A program made the translations under genes and the position numbers. From Curtobacterium sp. Leaf261 (GTDB taxonomy: Bacteria; Actinomycetota; Actinomycetes; Actinomycetales; Microbacteriaceae): DNA of 64,000 bases. The notes under the pieces are model-generated. The model saw only the letters and a list, made by a program, of their open reading frames with translations, ran no database searches and was not told the origin of the DNA. The stretch's first letter is position 1. Each line of letters begins with the position of its first letter. Shown here one piece after another: positions 51,545-62,673 of the stretch. The stretch covers positions 675,591 through 739,590 of the forward strand of contig NZ_LMMJ01000001.1 of the NCBI RefSeq assembly GCF_001422205.1. Direction: 5' to 3'.

Positions 51545-51900
51545 GGCAGTCGTCGCGCATCGCACCACGGCTGCCGCATGGCACCACTCCCGCTGCAAGG
51601 CGCCACTCCCGCTGCATCGCCCCTCTCCCGCTGCATGGCGCCACTCCCGCCGCATCGCCCCACTCCCGCCGCATCGCCCCACTCCCGCTGCATCGCCCCA
51701 CTCCCGCTGCAAGGCGCCACTCCCGCCGCATCGCCCCACGGGTGACCCCGGGTGCGATGCGCCGTTCGTGGTGCGATGCACGGTCCGCGGTGCCTGCACT
51801 CCCACCACCCGCCACACCGCTTCTCACCCATCGCACCACTCCCGGCGCAAGGCACCACTGATCACCCCGGGTGCGATGCGCCGTTCGTGGTGTGATGCGC
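51545..51900. repeat. Array of 19-20 bp CACTCCCGCTGCATCGCC words
   Basis: About eight imperfect copies of CCACTCCCGC(C/T)GCATCGCC run from 51580 to 51735, with CAAGGCG variants, followed by inverted forms (GGGTGCGATGCGCCGTTCGT at about 51747 and again about 51868). The same words form the cluster at 9933-10062. The whole gap 51520-51961 (442 bases) is this repeat; I see no gene in it. Not a CRISPR array: no unique spacers. Confidence 0.7.
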
Positions 51901-51961: not shown

Positions 51962-53032
51962 ATGACCCTGCCGTCCGCGGAGAACCCCGTCCAGCCCATG
52001 CTCGCCAAGGCGGTCACAAGCGTCCCCGAGCCCGACTCCGTCGAAGGCGGACTCCGCTACGAGCCCAAGTGGGACGGGTTCCGCGGGCTGGTCTACTTCG
52101 ACGGCACGGACGTCGAGATCGGCAGCCGTGGCTCGAAGATGCTGACGCGGTACTTCCCGGAGCTCGTCGCCGCCTTCGCGGAACAGCTCCCCGGGCCGTG
52201 CGTGCTCGACGGCGAGATCATCGTCCGCCGGCCGACGGACGACACCGGCGACAACGCTCCCGGAGAGCGGCTCGACTGGGAAGCCCTGTCCCAGCGCATC
52301 CACCCCGCGGCCTCCCGAGTCGAGCAGCTCAGCGTGGCGACACCGGCCGCGTTCGTCGCCTTCGACCTGCTCCGCTTCGAGGACCGCGACCTGACCGACC
52401 TGCCCTTCGACGATCGTCGCGCCGCGCTCGAGACGCTGGCCGAGTCCCTCGCCGACCCGCTGTTCCTGTCCCAGACCACACTCGACGTCGACGAGGCCCG
52501 TCGCTGGCTCGAGCAGTTCGAGGGTGCCGGCCTCGACGGGGTCGTCGCGAAGCCCCGCACCGCGCCGTACGCACCGGGCAAGCGGACGATGCTCAAGGCG
52601 AAGCACCACCGGACGGCCGACGTCGTCGCGATCGGGTACCGGGTGCACAAGAGCGGCTCGGGCGTCGGGTCCCTGCTCCTCGGTCTGTTCGACGGGGACG
52701 AGGTCCGGCAGGTCGGCGGCGTCTCGGCGTTCTCGGACGTCCGTCGGCAGGAGCTCGTCGCGGAGCTGGAGCCCCTCGTGGTGCGCGATGCGGACGGGAG
52801 GCCCGTGGTCGGCCAGGGCGAGCGCAGCCGGTTCTCGTCGGGTCGCGACACGACCTTCGTCCCGCTCCGGCCGGAGCGGGTGCTCGAGGTCCGGTACGAC
52901 CAGATGGAGGGCGACCGGTTCCGGCACACGGTGCAGTTCGAACGCTGGAGGCCGGACCGGTTCGCGTCGTCGTGCACGTTCGACCAGCTCGAGGTCCCGG
53001 CGGCGTACGACCTCGGCAGGGTGCTTCAGTGA
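51962..53032 (+). CDS. ligC: ATP-dependent DNA ligase, LigC type
   Basis: 356 aa, the size of mycobacterial LigC. Motif I has the AMP-accepting Lys (RYEPKWDGFRGL, Lys36), III is CVLDGEIIV, IIIa FVAFDLLRF, IV GLDGVVAKP and V TMLKAKHHRTADVVAIGYRV; an OB domain follows. Seals DNA (and RNA-containing) nicks in repair. CAGGAT ends six bases before the ATG. Together with the convergent PolDom gene at 53580-54599 it reconstitutes two of the three activities of a LigD protein. Confidence 0.93.
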   Translation: MTLPSAENPVQPMLAKAVTSVPEPDSVEGGLRYEPKWDGFRGLVYFDGTDVEIGSRGSKMLTRYFPELVAAFAEQLPGPCVLDGEIIVRRPTDDTGDNAPGERLDWEALSQRIHPAASRVEQLSVATPAAFVAFDLLRFEDRDLTDLPFDDRRAALETLAESLADPLFLSQTTLDVDEARRWLEQFEGAGLDGVVAKPRTAPYAPGKRTMLKAKHHRTADVVAIGYRVHKSGSGVGSLLLGLFDGDEVRQVGGVSAFSDVRRQELVAELEPLVVRDADGRPVVGQGERSRFSSGRDTTFVPLRPERVLEVRYDQMEGDRFRHTVQFERWRPDRFASSCTFDQLEVPAAYDLGRVLQ

Positions 53033-53579: not shown

Positions 53580-54599
53580 CTAGTCCTTCCGTGCCCGCGA
53601 GGGCTGCACGCGCGACGGCTCCCCCGGCATCTTCGGGAAGTCCGGCGGGAACGGCATCTCGCCGAGACCGTCCTCCAGGTCACGCTCCCACCAGCCGAGC
53701 AGCCCCTCGAGCCGCCCGGGTGACGCGTGCATGTCCTCCCACGGGTCACCGGCGCGCTTCAGCCGTCCGGGTGTGGTCGCGATCGTCAGGGTGGTCGGAT
53801 CGGTGTGCTCGAGCTCGTCCCACTCGAGCGGCGTGGAGACGGACGCGTGCGGCAGCGCCCGAGGGCTGTAGGCGCCGGCCATCGTGCGGTCGCGGTTCGC
53901 CTGGTTGTAGTCCACGAAGATGCGCTGTCCGCGCTCCTCCTTCCACCACGCCGTCGTGACCTGGTCGGGCATCCGGCGTTCGAGCTCCCGGGCGGCGGCG
54001 ATCACGGCATGGCGGACGTCGAGGAACTCCCACTCGGGGTCGATCGGGGCGAACACGTGCAGTCCGCGGTTGCCCGAGGTCTTGATCCACGCGCCGAGAC
54101 CGACCTCGTCGAGGACCGTCCGGAGCTCCTGCGCCGCGGGGATCGCATCGCGGAAGTCGGTGCCGGGCTGCGGGTCGAGGTCGATCCGCAGCTGGTCGGG
54201 GAAGTCCGGGCGGTCCGCACGCGAGGCCCACGGGTGGAACACGACGGTGTTCATCTGCGCGGCCCACACGGCGACCGCAGGTTCGTCGATGACGAGCTGC
54301 GGGTGGCTCCGGCCGCTCGGGTAGGTCACCTCGACGGAGCGGACGTACTCCGGGGCGCCCTTCGGCGGGTTCTTCGAGAAGAACTGCTCGCCGTCGACAC
54401 CACCCGGGAACCGCTGCAGCGAGATCGGCCGCCCGCCGTTCGCACGGACGAAGGCGTCGCCGACCTCGACGAGGTAGTTCGCGAGGTCGAGCTTCGTCAG
54501 CCCCGCGTCCGGCCAGAGCACTCGGCCGGGGCTCGAGACGCGAACTTCCCGGTCGCCGTCGGGACCGGGCACCGTCACGGTCGTCGCTTCGCTCACCAT
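53580..54599 (-). CDS. LigD-type DNA polymerase domain (PolDom/AEP primase family)
   Basis: 339 aa stand-alone polymerase domain. Catalytic aspartates in LRIDLDPQPG, preceded by LVIDEPAVAVWAAQMN, and the nucleotide-binding KTSGNRGLHVFAPI; DYNQANRDRTMAGAYSPR follows. Fills gaps with ribo- or deoxynucleotides at double-strand breaks. In full LigD it is fused to a ligase; here it is separate and convergent with the LigC gene. No Ku gene is in the window. TACCGT lies six bases before ATG 54599. Confidence 0.93.
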   Translation of the reverse strand: MVSEATTVTVPGPDGDREVRVSSPGRVLWPDAGLTKLDLANYLVEVGDAFVRANGGRPISLQRFPGGVDGEQFFSKNPPKGAPEYVRSVEVTYPSGRSHPQLVIDEPAVAVWAAQMNTVVFHPWASRADRPDFPDQLRIDLDPQPGTDFRDAIPAAQELRTVLDEVGLGAWIKTSGNRGLHVFAPIDPEWEFLDVRHAVIAAARELERRMPDQVTTAWWKEERGQRIFVDYNQANRDRTMAGAYSPRALPHASVSTPLEWDELEHTDPTTLTIATTPGRLKRAGDPWEDMHASPGRLEGLLGWWERDLEDGLGEMPFPPDFPKMPGEPSRVQPSRARKD

Positions 54600-57608: not shown

Positions 57609-58037
57609 TCACTCCGTCTCGATCGTCACGCCCTTCGCCCGCAGCTCCGCGTCGACGTGCGCCGGGAGCGGTGCGACGGTCCACACGGCCTCGAGCGCCG
57701 GCAGGTCGACGATGTCCGACCACGTCTGCGGGTCGTAGCGGTCGTCGTCACCGTCCCAGTCCGGGTGCACGTCCTGGTAGATCTCGAGCGTGCCGTCGAT
57801 GGTCAGCGTCGTGACGAGCTCGAGCTGGGCGGGCATCACGTCGAGCGATGCGTAGTACTCCCGGGCGAGCGCGTCCTGTCCCTCGACGGCGTCGCCCTCC
57901 TCGTCGCCGTCCTCCGCCCCGCCGGTGTACGGCACGAGCACGTCGAGGTCGTAGCACAGCGCCTCGAGCACGAGCAGTTTGGCGTTGAAGTCGGCGAAGT
58001 CGTAGGGCTCTTCGGTTCCGTTCGAGGCAGCGTCCAT
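57609..58037 (-). CDS. Small acidic cytoplasmic protein, possibly DUF6892-like
   Basis: 142 aa, strongly acidic (GGAEDGDEEGDAVEGQD). DFADFNAKLLVLEALCYDLDV near the start recalls DUF6892 proteins, from memory only. No membrane segment or catalytic motif. TACGAT (58045-58050 on the plus strand as ATCGTA) is seven bases before the ATG. Function unknown. Confidence 0.72.
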   Translation of the reverse strand: MDAASNGTEEPYDFADFNAKLLVLEALCYDLDVLVPYTGGAEDGDEEGDAVEGQDALAREYYASLDVMPAQLELVTTLTIDGTLEIYQDVHPDWDGDDDRYDPQTWSDIVDLPALEAVWTVAPLPAHVDAELRAKGVTIETE

Positions 58038-58150: not shown

Positions 58151-60934
58151 TCAGGACGCGGGGACGTCCTCGTCGATCGCCGCGCGGAGCACGGCTGCCA
58201 GCTCGGTGACGTGCGGCTCCCGCAGCAGCGAGGAGTGCTCGCTCTCGAGCCGCGGCCAGCGCATGTCACCGGTCAGGAACTCCGCCCACGCCTCGCGGCC
58301 GTCGGGGTTGTTGTCCGCCTGCACGAACGTCACGCGGCCGTCGTACTGCGGCACCCTGTAGCGCTTCGACATGAGCGACGCCTGGTCGAACAGCGCGTCG
58401 AACTGCTTCTGCCCCGAGTACTGGAACACACCCGCTCCGTACGCGCGGATCCGGCGGCCGACGCGGCGGAACTGCGCCGCGCCTCCCGGCAGGACACGGC
58501 GGACCTGCTTGTCGACCGTCCGGAGGACCGCCGCGATCGCGGGGTTGGCGTTCTCGCGGTCGGGGAGCCTCGCGAACTCGAGGGCACCCTGCTCAGCGGT
58601 GGTGCGCGGGAGGTAGGTGTCGAGGAGCACGACGTGCTCGACGACCTCGCCCGCGGTGGTCAGCATCCTCGAGATCTGAAGGGCGACGAGCCCACCGAGC
58701 GAGTGTCCGACGATGAGGTACGGACCGTGGGGCTGGACGACCCGCATGAGCTCGAGGTACCGCTTGGCGGACGCCTCGATGCTCCAGTCCGGGAACGTCC
58801 GGCGCTCGAGACCGTGCTGCTGGAAGGCGTACACGTCATGCCCGGCGAGGTGCCGGGACAGCGGCAGGAACGTCAGCGCGAGCGCGCCGGCACCCGTGAT
58901 GCAGAAGACCGGCGAGCCGCTCCCGCCACTCGTCAGCTTGACGACGTCCGGGTGGCTCGGGATCGCGGCGGCCCCGGAGCGGACCCGGCGCGCGAACTCG
59001 CGGACGGTCGGGTTCTCGAGGATCTCCGACGACCGGAGGTCCACGCCGATGCGCTCCTGCACCGTGGCGAGCATCTCCTCGGCGGACAGCGAGTCGCCAC
59101 CGAGCTCGGCGAAGTCGTCGTCGAGTCCCACCGACGGGAGACCGAGGACCTCGGCCCAGATCTGGCCGACCACGAGCTCCCACTGGTCGAAGGTCGTCTC
59201 GGACATCTCGGTGCCGGTGGACTCGGCGGCACCGACGACCACCTGCGCGGCGTCGACCTCGGAGTCCGTCGCGGTGACGGTCGGTGCCGTGACCGGCGTC
59301 GTCGCGCCGGGGGCCGGGACCGCGGGCAGCTGTGCACGGTCGACCTTGCCGCGCTCGTTCCGCGGGAGCACGATCATCGGCACGATCGCACCGGGGACCA
59401 TGTAGTCCGGCAGCTGGTCGCGGAGTGCCCGACGGATCGCCGCGGGCGACGCGGTCCGCCGGCCGGAGCGCTGCACGACGTAGGCCACGAGGCGCGTCGG
59501 TGCCGGTGGGTTCTTGACGGCGAGCACGATGGCGTCCTGGACACCGTCGAGCGCACGGATGGCGGCCTCGACCTCGCTCGGCTCGACGAGGTAGCCACGG
59601 ACCTTGACCGCGTCGTCCGCGCGACCGAGGAGCGTGATGCGCCCCTCGGCGTCGAACCGGCCGAGGTCGCCCTGCTTCCACGTCGGGGTGCCGTCGTCGT
59701 CGACGCCGGCTCGCGCCGCCGTCTGCTCCGGGGCGCCCCAGTACCCGGCCGTCATGGCGTCGGAGACGACCTGGATGTCGCCGGTCTCGCCGACGTCGGC
59801 CAGCGATCCGTCCGCGCGGAGGATCCTGACCTCCTTGCCGAACGCGATCCGGCCGGAGGGGACGGGACCGTCGGGGATCGGGTCCCCCGGGGCGATCTCG
59901 TTGAAGGCGATCACGTTCGTCTCGCTCGAGCCGGTCCAGTTGAAGAAGGACGCGTCCTCGTGCATGAACGGCCGGAGCGCGGCGATGTCCGGACCGGTGA
60001 TCGCTTCGCCGACCGTCGCGAACATCCGGACGCCGTGCAGCCGCGACTCGTCGGCGTCGAGGGCTGCGACGACCGAGCGCACGAGGTGCGGTGTGCAGTG
60101 GAACGTCGTGACCCGCTGGTCCACGATCCACGCCATGAGCTTCTCGATCCCGGTGTCGCGGGGATCGACGATGTGGACGCTCGCGCCGGCGAGCAGCCCG
60201 GTGACGACGAGCGAGAACCCTGCGGCGAACCCGTGCGGCAGGACCGAGGAGACCCGGTCATTAGCACCGATCCGGAAGGCGATCCGCTCACTCGCGGCGT
60301 CGACGAGCACCTGTCGGTGCGTCATGACGACGCCCTTCGGCGCCCCGGTCGAGCCGGAGGTGAAGATGATGGTGATACCGTCACGACCACCGCGCTCGAG
60401 GCCTGCCGGAACGAGGGGGATCGCGTCGTCGCCCGCCGCGACGGCAGCGGCGTCACCGAGCATGGACGACAGCGCGTGCACTCGGTCGGCACCGTCGACG
60501 AGCGGCAGCGAGTACTCGTGGTTCGCGTCGTCGGCGATGACCTCGCGGATGCCGGCGAGCCGGATCACGTGCTCGAGACGCGCCTGCGGGAGGTGTGGAT
60601 CGAGCGCGACGAACAGCCGCCCGGCCTTGACGAGCCCGAGCATCGCGAGGACACCGTCGGTGCCGTGCGCGGTCATCAGTCCGACCGGGACGGTGTCGCC
60701 ACCGAGGGTCGGTCCGACACCGGGGCCGGTGTGGTCGTCCGGCGCGAGTCGGTCGTCCAACAGCACGGCGAGCGCGCCCGTGAGTCGATCGGTCTCGCGG
60801 TAGGTGAGCGAACGGCTGGCGTCGGTGAGTGCCGAGCCGTCGGGGTTGGTGGCTGCGGAGATCGCGAGTCCCTCGATGAGGGACCCGACGGGCTCCGAGT
60901 CGATCTGCGCCTGGGAGTGGGCGTGGGTCAACAA
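58151..60934 (-). CDS. Single-module NRPS-like synthetase: adenylation - thiolation - thioesterase
   Basis: 927 aa. Adenylation domain 20-540: FTSGSTGAPKG (191-201), NWTGSSETN (332-340), QGDLGRF (421-427), GRADDAVKVRGYLVEPSEVE (437-456), catalytic Lys530 in NERGKVDR. Carrier domain 585-655 with Ser615 in LGGDSLS. Thioesterase 670-925 with nucleophile in GHSLGGLVALQ (Ser745) and a His in SEHSSLL. No condensation domain. At the slot where amino-acid-activating domains have Asp (core A4, FDxS), this one reads FAAG (about 237), so an acid without an alpha-amino group is expected. The start is TTG, with GGGAGG eight bases upstream. Divergent from an APC permease; no phosphopantetheinyl transferase nearby. 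Confidence 0.92.
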   Translation of the reverse strand: MLTHAHSQAQIDSEPVGSLIEGLAISAATNPDGSALTDASRSLTYRETDRLTGALAVLLDDRLAPDDHTGPGVGPTLGGDTVPVGLMTAHGTDGVLAMLGLVKAGRLFVALDPHLPQARLEHVIRLAGIREVIADDANHEYSLPLVDGADRVHALSSMLGDAAAVAAGDDAIPLVPAGLERGGRDGITIIFTSGSTGAPKGVVMTHRQVLVDAASERIAFRIGANDRVSSVLPHGFAAGFSLVVTGLLAGASVHIVDPRDTGIEKLMAWIVDQRVTTFHCTPHLVRSVVAALDADESRLHGVRMFATVGEAITGPDIAALRPFMHEDASFFNWTGSSETNVIAFNEIAPGDPIPDGPVPSGRIAFGKEVRILRADGSLADVGETGDIQVVSDAMTAGYWGAPEQTAARAGVDDDGTPTWKQGDLGRFDAEGRITLLGRADDAVKVRGYLVEPSEVEAAIRALDGVQDAIVLAVKNPPAPTRLVAYVVQRSGRRTASPAAIRRALRDQLPDYMVPGAIVPMIVLPRNERGKVDRAQLPAVPAPGATTPVTAPTVTATDSEVDAAQVVVGAAESTGTEMSETTFDQWELVVGQIWAEVLGLPSVGLDDDFAELGGDSLSAEEMLATVQERIGVDLRSSEILENPTVREFARRVRSGAAAIPSHPDVVKLTSGGSGSPVFCITGAGALALTFLPLSRHLAGHDVYAFQQHGLERRTFPDWSIEASAKRYLELMRVVQPHGPYLIVGHSLGGLVALQISRMLTTAGEVVEHVVLLDTYLPRTTAEQGALEFARLPDRENANPAIAAVLRTVDKQVRRVLPGGAAQFRRVGRRIRAYGAGVFQYSGQKQFDALFDQASLMSKRYRVPQYDGRVTFVQADNNPDGREAWAEFLTGDMRWPRLESEHSSLLREPHVTELAAVLRAAIDEDVPAS

Positions 60935-61218
60935 GGGTGAAACCTCCCGTTTCGGGTTCGGGGGTCAGTCAGTGGTTGGGTGTCACGGTACCCGCCGGTC
61001 CACAGCTCGTCCATAGATGAGCGTCGATCATGCGGGGTCCCGCCTCATTGCCCGCGTCGGTCGGGATGTGGTCGACGCAAGCTGGAGTGGCTGTCCGATG
61101 GTTGTTCGGAACCGGTGGACAGGTGGTTCGGTCCTCCCCGCGCGAACGGCGTGTTGCAGGCAGCGGAGAGGTTGCTGTGAGGACGGACAGGTTCCGGGGA
61201 ACCGCGTCAGGCTGAGGC

Positions 61219-62673
61219 ATGGCAACCACGACTCCCACCGCGGCCCCGGACGGCGACACCGAGCTGAAACGCGTCATCGGCCCGAAGCTCCTGCTGTTGT
61301 TCATCGTCGGCGACATCCTCGGGACGGGTGTCTACGCCCTCACCGGACAGGTCGCCGCGGAGGTCGGGGGCGCCGCGTGGGTGCCCTTCCTCGTGGCGTT
61401 CGGCGTGGCGCTCCTCACCGCGTTCTCCTACCTGGAGCTCGTGACGAAGTACCCGCAGACGGCGGGTGCCGCGCTCTACGTGCACAAGGCGTTCGGCATC
61501 CACTTCGTCACGTTCATCGTGACGTTCGTGGTGATGTGCTCCGGGATCACGTCGGCGTCGACGGCGTCCAGGGCGTTCGCCGCGAACCTCGGCGTCGGGT
61601 TCGGCCTCGAGCTGCCGAACGGCGTGGTGATGCTCATCGCGATGCTCTTCATGCTGCTCGTGATGGCGGTGAACTTCCGCGGGGTCAGCGAGAGCGTCAA
61701 GACGAACGTCGTGCTCACCCTCGTCGAGCTGTCCGGCCTCGTGATGGTGATCCTCATCGGGTTCTGGGCGATCGCCGGTGGGAACGCGGACTTCTCGCGG
61801 GTCGTGCTCTTCGAGAGCCCGTCGGACAAGTCCCTGCTGCTGTCCATCTCGGCGGCGACCTCGCTGGCGTTCTTCGCGATGGTGGGGTTCGAGGACTCGG
61901 TGAACATGGCCGAGGAGACCAAGGACCCGTCGCGGATCTTCCCGAAGGTCATGCTCACGGGACTCTCGATCACGGCGGTCATCTACGTGCTCGTCGGCAT
62001 CGTCGCCGTCGCGATCGTTCCGGTCGGTCAGCTCGCCGACAACGAGACCCCCCTCGTCACCGTCGTGAACACCGCCGCACCCGGGTTCCCGATCGGGGCG
62101 CTGCTGCCCTTCATCTCGATGTTCGCCGTCGCGAACAGCGCGCTGATCAACATGATGATGGCGTCGCGTCTGCTCTACGGGATGAGCAAGCAGGGGGTCC
62201 TCCCGGGCTTCCTGTCGAAGGTCAGCCCGACCCGCAGGACCCCGTCGGCCGCGATCGTCTTCACCACACTGCTGTCCCTGGCGCTCATCGGCTGGGTGTC
62301 GCTCTCGCCGGAGTCCCCCATCGTGGCCGTGCTCGGTGGCACGACGTCGCTCCTGCTCCTCGCGGTGTTCGCGGTCGTGAACGTCGTGGTGCTCGTGCTC
62401 CGGAAGGACCGGGTGGAGCACAAGCACTTCCGGGCCGGGGTCGTGGTGCCGCTCATCGGGGTCGTGGCGTGCGTGTGGCTCGTGCTCCCGGTGTCCTCGG
62501 GCCGTGCGGTCGAGCAGTACCAGATCGCCGGGGGCCTGCTCGCGATCGGGATCGTCCTCTGGGCGGTGACGTGGTTCTCGCGGCGGCGTCGCGGGTCCGC
62601 CGAGGTCGGCTCGTCCGGATCGGCGGAGACGGCGTCGGAGTCTGCGTCTGCGGAGGCGTCGCCGGAGCGCTGA
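61219..62673 (+). CDS. APC-family amino acid permease
   Basis: 484 aa, 12 helices. GDILGTGVYALTGQVAAEVG is the family's first-helix signature, followed by FSYLELVTKYPQTAGAALYV and NMAEETKDPSRIFPKVML. Imports an amino acid or amine by symport or exchange. ATG 61219 follows CAGGCT by five bases. Divergent from the A-T-TE synthetase across 284 bases that hold no other clear signal; it could move that enzyme's substrate or product, but nothing proves a link. Ser/Ala/Glu-rich C-terminal tail. Confidence 0.92.
   Translation: MATTTPTAAPDGDTELKRVIGPKLLLLFIVGDILGTGVYALTGQVAAEVGGAAWVPFLVAFGVALLTAFSYLELVTKYPQTAGAALYVHKAFGIHFVTFIVTFVVMCSGITSASTASRAFAANLGVGFGLELPNGVVMLIAMLFMLLVMAVNFRGVSESVKTNVVLTLVELSGLVMVILIGFWAIAGGNADFSRVVLFESPSDKSLLLSISAATSLAFFAMVGFEDSVNMAEETKDPSRIFPKVMLTGLSITAVIYVLVGIVAVAIVPVGQLADNETPLVTVVNTAAPGFPIGALLPFISMFAVANSALINMMMASRLLYGMSKQGVLPGFLSKVSPTRRTPSAAIVFTTLLSLALIGWVSLSPESPIVAVLGGTTSLLLLAVFAVVNVVVLVLRKDRVEHKHFRAGVVVPLIGVVACVWLVLPVSSGRAVEQYQIAGGLLAIGIVLWAVTWFSRRRRGSAEVGSSGSAETASESASAEASPER

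Follow-up and report, generated by a model that had tools for sequence, protein, structure and literature searches.

The window, meaning the whole 64,000-nucleotide stretch of Curtobacterium sp. Leaf261 DNA that was analysed, carries a gene for a stand-alone synthetase composed of an adenylation (A), a carrier (T) and a thioesterase (TE) domain. The first-pass annotation had placed this gene correctly at 58151-60934 and gave no strand; the gene is read from the minus strand. Its TTG start codon is preceded by a likely ribosome-binding site, and the nearest homologue (P0004) starts at the same residue as the window protein. The features of the locus are listed below, with the basis of each in brackets.

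58151..60934, minus strand: A-T-TE synthetase gene, 927 aa, TTG start (open reading frame and Pfam)
60943..60948, minus strand: GGGAGG, likely ribosome-binding site, 8 bases 5' of the TTG (read from the sequence)
59327..60859, minus strand: adenylation domain, residues 26-536, with K530 corresponding to Lys517 (Pfam; alignment for K530)
60212..60238, minus strand: core A4, residues 233-241, PHGFAAGFS, with Ala237 (60224-60226) at the Asp235 position (alignment)
59921..59941, minus strand: core A5, residues 332-338, NWTGSSE, with Ser336 in place of the Pro of GPTE (alignment)
58982..59167, minus strand: carrier domain, residues 590-651, phosphopantetheine Ser615 (Pfam and alignment)
58196..58912, minus strand: thioesterase domain, residues 675-913, with Ser745 (GHSLGG), Asp772 and His900 (Pfam and alignment)
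57609..58037, minus strand: DUF6892 gene, left neighbour (open reading frame and domain match)
61219..62673, plus strand: amino-acid permease gene, right neighbour, divergent (open reading frame and domain match)

Pfam recognised AMP-binding (residues 26-399), AMP-binding_C (454-530), PP-binding (590-651) and Thioesterase (675-913) in the window protein and found no condensation (C) domain in it, which bears out the earlier description of an A-T-TE enzyme lacking that domain. Among the matches listed, all homologues that were at least 50% identical and named by organism came from Curtobacterium. An AlphaFold model of the protein (mean pLDDT 82, pTM 0.58) matched terminal modules of non-ribosomal peptide synthetases (NRPS) such as EntF and SrfA-C, and its A, carrier and TE folds are predicted to be like theirs. 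Comparison of the whole model against known structures listed 50 matches within a span of about 3 Z units, nearly all of them peptide-synthetase or related A domains, and this comparison carried no substrate signal. Rfam models at gathering scores gave no match anywhere in the window.

We read the specificity code of the A domain by alignment with E. coli EntF and obtained AASHAVWVIK, composed of A237, A238, S241, H279, A306, V308, W333, V341, I342 and K530. The alignment columns look right, since EntF reads DVWHFSLVDK in them, which we take to be the serine code. The code of EntE from this alignment was left out of the comparison, as an excerpt of PMC11253843 describes a backbone shift at this place in domains of the DhbE kind. 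The alignment also confirmed that the motif HGFAAGFS has Ala where amino-acid-activating domains hold the A4 Asp (Asp235), as had been noted from the sequence before. Asp occupied this position in 23 of 23 reference domains (22 NRPS domains and EntF) and in none of 119 homologues (P0004-P0122, with the query and the identical P0003 excluded), which had Ala (90), Ser (11), Val (9), Thr (5), Leu (2), Pro (1) or Ile (1) instead. The Pro of the A5 motif GPTE is Ser in the window protein (GSSE), and the same homologues showed Ser in 107 cases, Ala in 10, Thr in one and Pro in one. The catalytic residues are complete, and the carrier Ser and the TE Ser, Asp and His were intact in 119/119 homologues. 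For 45 family genes the neighbourhood is known; these held Ala (27), Ile (6), Gly (4), Ser (3), Val (3) or His (2) at position 235, none had the A5 Pro, and 44 had a complete TE triad, the remaining one (L017) having a gap at the His. According to an excerpt of PMC11253843, the keto-acid domain StsA has Met in place of a Pro that amino-acid domains conserve; by our own mapping through LgrA numbering, this site would be the Pro of GPTE. Judged from the alignment, two marks of an alpha-amino-acid substrate, Asp235 and the A5 Pro, have been lost. Since the enzyme has neither a C domain nor Asp235, an alpha-amino-acid substrate is unlikely, and this half of the first-pass reading held. We are confident that the substrate is some acid other than an alpha-amino acid.

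We calculated two A-domain trees with a quick method. The first contained 61 rows, including 35 family rows, one of them the Parafrankia enzyme L164, and 19 NRPS rows, 10 family rows and 4 NRPS rows having been dropped beforehand; the second contained 46 rows after 14 further family rows and MenE had been removed. The family formed a single clade in both (35 rows with a support of 99, then 21 rows with a support of 100), and each group stayed whole in the second tree. In the first tree, the family clade was sister to the NRPS A domains with a support of 99, EchA fell outside family and NRPS domains together, also with a support of 99, and EntE clustered with acyl-CoA ligases. Whether the A domain clusters with amino-acid-activating domains had been proposed as a check in the first-pass annotation, and the answer is that the window family stands beside the NRPS domains and not inside them.

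The best clue to the substrate came from Parafrankia. At all three loci fetched from this group (L163, L164 and L165), the family member lies beside seven genes that presumably belong to a route to 3-amino-5-hydroxybenzoate (AHBA), namely AHBA synthase, a MocA oxidoreductase, a HAD phosphatase, a ROK kinase, a DHQ-synthase-like protein, a shikimate-dehydrogenase-like protein and DHQase II (aminoDAHP synthase was outside the scan). The DegT protein of the Parafrankia locus had AHBA synthase 1b9h as its best PDB match (E 2.7e-190), and the HAD protein reached 318 bits with TIGR01454, the AHBA synthesis associated protein, whose cut-off is 247. An ABC-transporter-like gene follows the family member (Pfam on L164), and glycosyltransferase, epimerase and methyltransferase genes were also present in the loci checked. 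AHBA is known mainly as a starter unit of ansamycins and mitomycins. No ketosynthase match was listed on the three Parafrankia contigs, and therefore no ansamycin-type polyketide synthase was seen there to use the AHBA. Six adenylating-enzyme queries run against the three loci and the flanking stretches L220-L222 matched only the A-T-TE itself. Since the AHBA genes are adjacent and neither another adenylating enzyme nor a ketosynthase was found there, the Parafrankia member likely loads AHBA, and an AHBA product made without a polyketide synthase is possible.

The AHBA-linked enzymes belong to the same clade as the window enzyme, with L164 representing them in the tree, but are not its nearest kin, and they are 39-40% identical to it. 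Both have an FxxG-like A4 without Asp, a GSSE-like A5 and a complete TE triad. The code of the AHBA-linked members was AATHTSWSLK in 3/3 cases, which has A235, A236, H278, W322 and K517 in common with the window code, with Thr in the former and Ser in the latter at 239. His278 and Trp322 occurred together in 46 of the 119 homologues and in 15 of the 45 family genes with known neighbourhood, while Trp322 occurred in 0/23 of the Asp-type reference domains. This shared code would tie the window enzyme to the AHBA-linked members as a pattern and not as a measured specificity. Two further Frankiaceae members (L152 and L153) read AATHTCWSLK, one letter off the AHBA-type code, and have no AHBA genes nearby.

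From the AHBA genes at three of three Parafrankia loci, together with the shared Ala, Ala, His, Trp and Lys, we infer an aryl-acid substrate, which we judge slightly better than an even bet. Our main reading, to which we assign a probability of roughly 0.5, is that the window enzyme is an A-T-TE synthetase from a separate actinobacterial clade, without the Asp of amino-acid domains, which likely activates a free aryl acid of the hydroxy- or aminobenzoate type, and not an amino acid or an aryl-pyruvate. Evidence against an aryl acid is that the AHBA link sits in the 39-40% identical relatives and not in the window genome. The A domain is predicted to adenylate the aryl acid, the activated acid would then be carried on the 4'-phosphopantetheine arm of Ser615, and Ser745 of the thioesterase would release the acyl group, either by forming an ester with a hydroxyl acceptor or by hydrolysis. 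Activation, carrier loading and TE release are established A-T-TE enzymology. Transfer to a hydroxyl is the more tentative part, and we put it somewhat below even odds. A broader proposal is a widespread actinobacterial family of single-gene aryl-acid synthetases, which would make an ester from a benzoic-type acid (AHBA in Parafrankia) without a C domain and would travel as a lone cassette in Curtobacterium; we regard this as conceivable and lean against it.

To our knowledge, the C-less A-T-TE enzymes of known product are all aryl-pyruvate dimerisers, and the first-pass annotation had pointed to RalA and the atromentin-type synthetases. A window enzyme that dimerises an aryl-pyruvate into a furanone, a quinone or a related product would have the expected domain order, which is given for RalA (ralfuranone) and for the fungal atromentin/quinone synthetases in excerpts of PMC5523082 and PMC10316625, and would have lost Asp235 as that class did. 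An excerpt of PMC10316625 presents a Val in the first code position as the mark of an alpha-keto acid; the window has Ala there. RalA and the fungal quinone synthetases themselves enter the comparison by published description. Our direct yardstick for the class was two EchA-type proteins from one Streptomyces genome, assigned by gene order. One of them (L181:5045-7897) is followed by an Epimerase gene and a SnoaL-like gene, which fits the dat/ech order of peptide synthetase, NAD-dependent dehydratase and limonene-epoxide-hydrolase-like protein given in an excerpt of PMC9379647; the other (L182:5234-8050) is followed by an Epimerase gene and an aminotransferase gene. Like the window protein, the EchA/DatA polyporic-acid synthetases of Streptomyces are A-T-TE enzymes without a C domain and without Asp235, but they are only 24-27% identical to it and occupy a separate A-domain branch. 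They have Val or Ile at 235, GMTE in A5, GYSYGG in the thioesterase and an Asn in place of the TE Asp, whereas the window protein has Ala, GSSE, GHSLGG and Asp. A constraint that joined the family and EchA in one clade was rejected with a p-AU of 0.019, in an AU test made on a quick tree, with the first tree already known, and with the two proteins assigned by gene order standing for the EchA type. A scan of the genes directly next to the window copy showed neither an aminotransferase nor an epimerase nor a SnoaL gene, unlike the EchA-type loci. The furanone or quinone reading is left unsupported by Ala235, GSSE and the separation of the A domain from the EchA type, RalA itself being known by published description only, and we consider aryl-pyruvate dimerisation improbable.

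The remaining alternatives concern alpha-hydroxy acids and amino acids, and the former draws on other members of the family. Loci were annotated with Pfam/NCBIfam and BLAST; a scan of genome contigs that gave at least 80 loci contributed L014-L017 as family members, with the Curtobacterium locus L013 outside the sample; neighbour genes came from a simple ORF chooser, and some of their ends are over-long. An FMN-dependent hydroxy-acid dehydrogenase follows the member at five Frankiaceae loci (L155, L157, L159, L161 and L166), all of which have Ile235; the sixth member with Ile235, L167 of Frankiaceae, is followed by an F420-type oxidoreductase and has no FMN dehydrogenase. These six are possibly a keto- or hydroxy-acid branch, and since the FMN dehydrogenase accompanies Ile235 at five loci, substrates would vary within the family. 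PF00756 esterases adjoin three other members (L127, L015 and L212), and an excerpt of PMC11253843 reports Ala235 (engineered TycA) or Gly235 (EnSynA1) for alpha-hydroxy-acid domains. All this is in line with a window enzyme whose substrate is an alpha-hydroxy (or alpha-keto) acid and whose product is an oligo-ester or a lactone. The FMN-linked members, however, combine Ile235 with codes that begin ISNV, unlike the window, and neither an FMN dehydrogenase nor a PF00756 esterase was found by the window copy, so that we hold this alternative to be unlikely, though worth keeping in view. An amino acid might still be activated through an unusual pocket and released by the thioesterase as an ester or as the free acid, and the sister position of the family clade to the peptide-synthetase A domains (support 99) would agree with this. 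The absence of Asp235 from every homologue and of the A5 Pro from all but one, when each reference domain keeps the Asp, makes such a substrate a very doubtful prospect.

Apart from these loci, the neighbourhoods gave scattered hints. A chorismate-lyase-like gene abuts the Glaciihabitans member L125, where PF01947 scored 33.9 bits against a threshold of 22, a weak match with a best PDB E value of 0.078, and the member from Vallicoccus (L168) has a benzoate transporter next to it; both speak for an aryl acid, though less strongly than the AHBA loci. A GT2 glycosyltransferase-like gene was found at 6/6 Curtobacterium loci of the majority type (L119-L124), and in the window's sub-clade a fatty-acid-desaturase-like gene was present at four of five loci (L115-L118), the exception being L114. 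Among the genes scanned, most family loci showed no gene for an aromatic acid, which weighs against an aryl-acid substrate, and many of the remaining loci showed no neighbour of a biosynthetic kind. The majority Curtobacterium copies do not have the pair His278 and Trp322 (AALVMVGAVK is an example), so that one genus contains two pockets. Both pocket types occur together in one Curtobacterium genome (G089, L118 and L119). Glaciihabitans genome G180 has three family copies (L125, L126 and L127), and genome G155 has two in tandem (L129).

The A-T-TE gene of the window occurs as a lone gene at a junction that is conserved in other Curtobacterium genomes. It is not unique in the group, since 26 of the 35 further genomes searched in the genus contain a family member at E <= 1e-80. 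The permease gene was present in 22/22 other Curtobacterium genomes searched (G001-G022), with DUF6892 adjoining it in 21 of them. None of the 22 had an A-T-TE match beside the permease within flanks of up to 1.5 kb, and the 16 among them with a member therefore hold it elsewhere. At ten of the permease junctions in these genomes the spacer to the first aligned permease codon measured 134-229 bases. Insertion of a single gene at this junction is the simplest reading; the alternative is that the A-T-TE gene was lost in the other Curtobacterium genomes. The composition is not obviously foreign, since the G+C content of the gene (0.714) matches that of the window (0.721). With DUF6892 and the permease as its immediate neighbours, the window copy has no aryl-acid biosynthesis gene beside it, AHBA genes included, and the aryl acid may therefore be imported or produced by genes at another place in the genome. 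A search of the window genome for AHBA synthase at E <= 1e-5, run without a positive control, found no match. A chorismate-lyase route was also considered for this genome and rejected, PF01947 being found in 0/36 genomes, the window genome included. Because both were unmatched there, the cell may import the acid, or the acid may be one other than AHBA and 4-hydroxybenzoate.

Among known systems, the EntF and SrfA-C modules, whose A domains form the sister clade, differ from the window enzyme in that the latter has no C domain, no Asp235 and no A5 Pro. The aryl-acid AMP ligases EntE and DhbE share the predicted substrate class of the window enzyme; they are free-standing, unlike the window A-T-TE. 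For DhbE, an excerpt of PMC11253843 gives an A5 of QQVxFMAEG and Asn235, and the window motif NWTGSSE is not of this kind. A search of the open-licence literature by titles and abstract beginnings returned, among the matches listed, nothing about this enzyme family, about an A-T-TE from Curtobacterium or about an AHBA cluster in Parafrankia. If benzoic-type acids are loaded, this would be a second chemistry for the C-less A-T-TE architecture, and AHBA would gain a use without a polyketide synthase. Ala235, His278 and Trp322 may serve as a candidate first pattern to pick out further members.

Elsewhere in the window, a tandem repeat at 51557-51739 (9.6 copies of a 19-base unit, also detected as units of 38 and 57 bases) lies between an acyl-CoA synthetase gene and an ATP-dependent DNA ligase gene. 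The ligase gene (51962-53032, plus strand) is convergent with a LigD-type primase-polymerase gene (about 53580-54490, minus strand), the two forming a split LigD-like repair pair.
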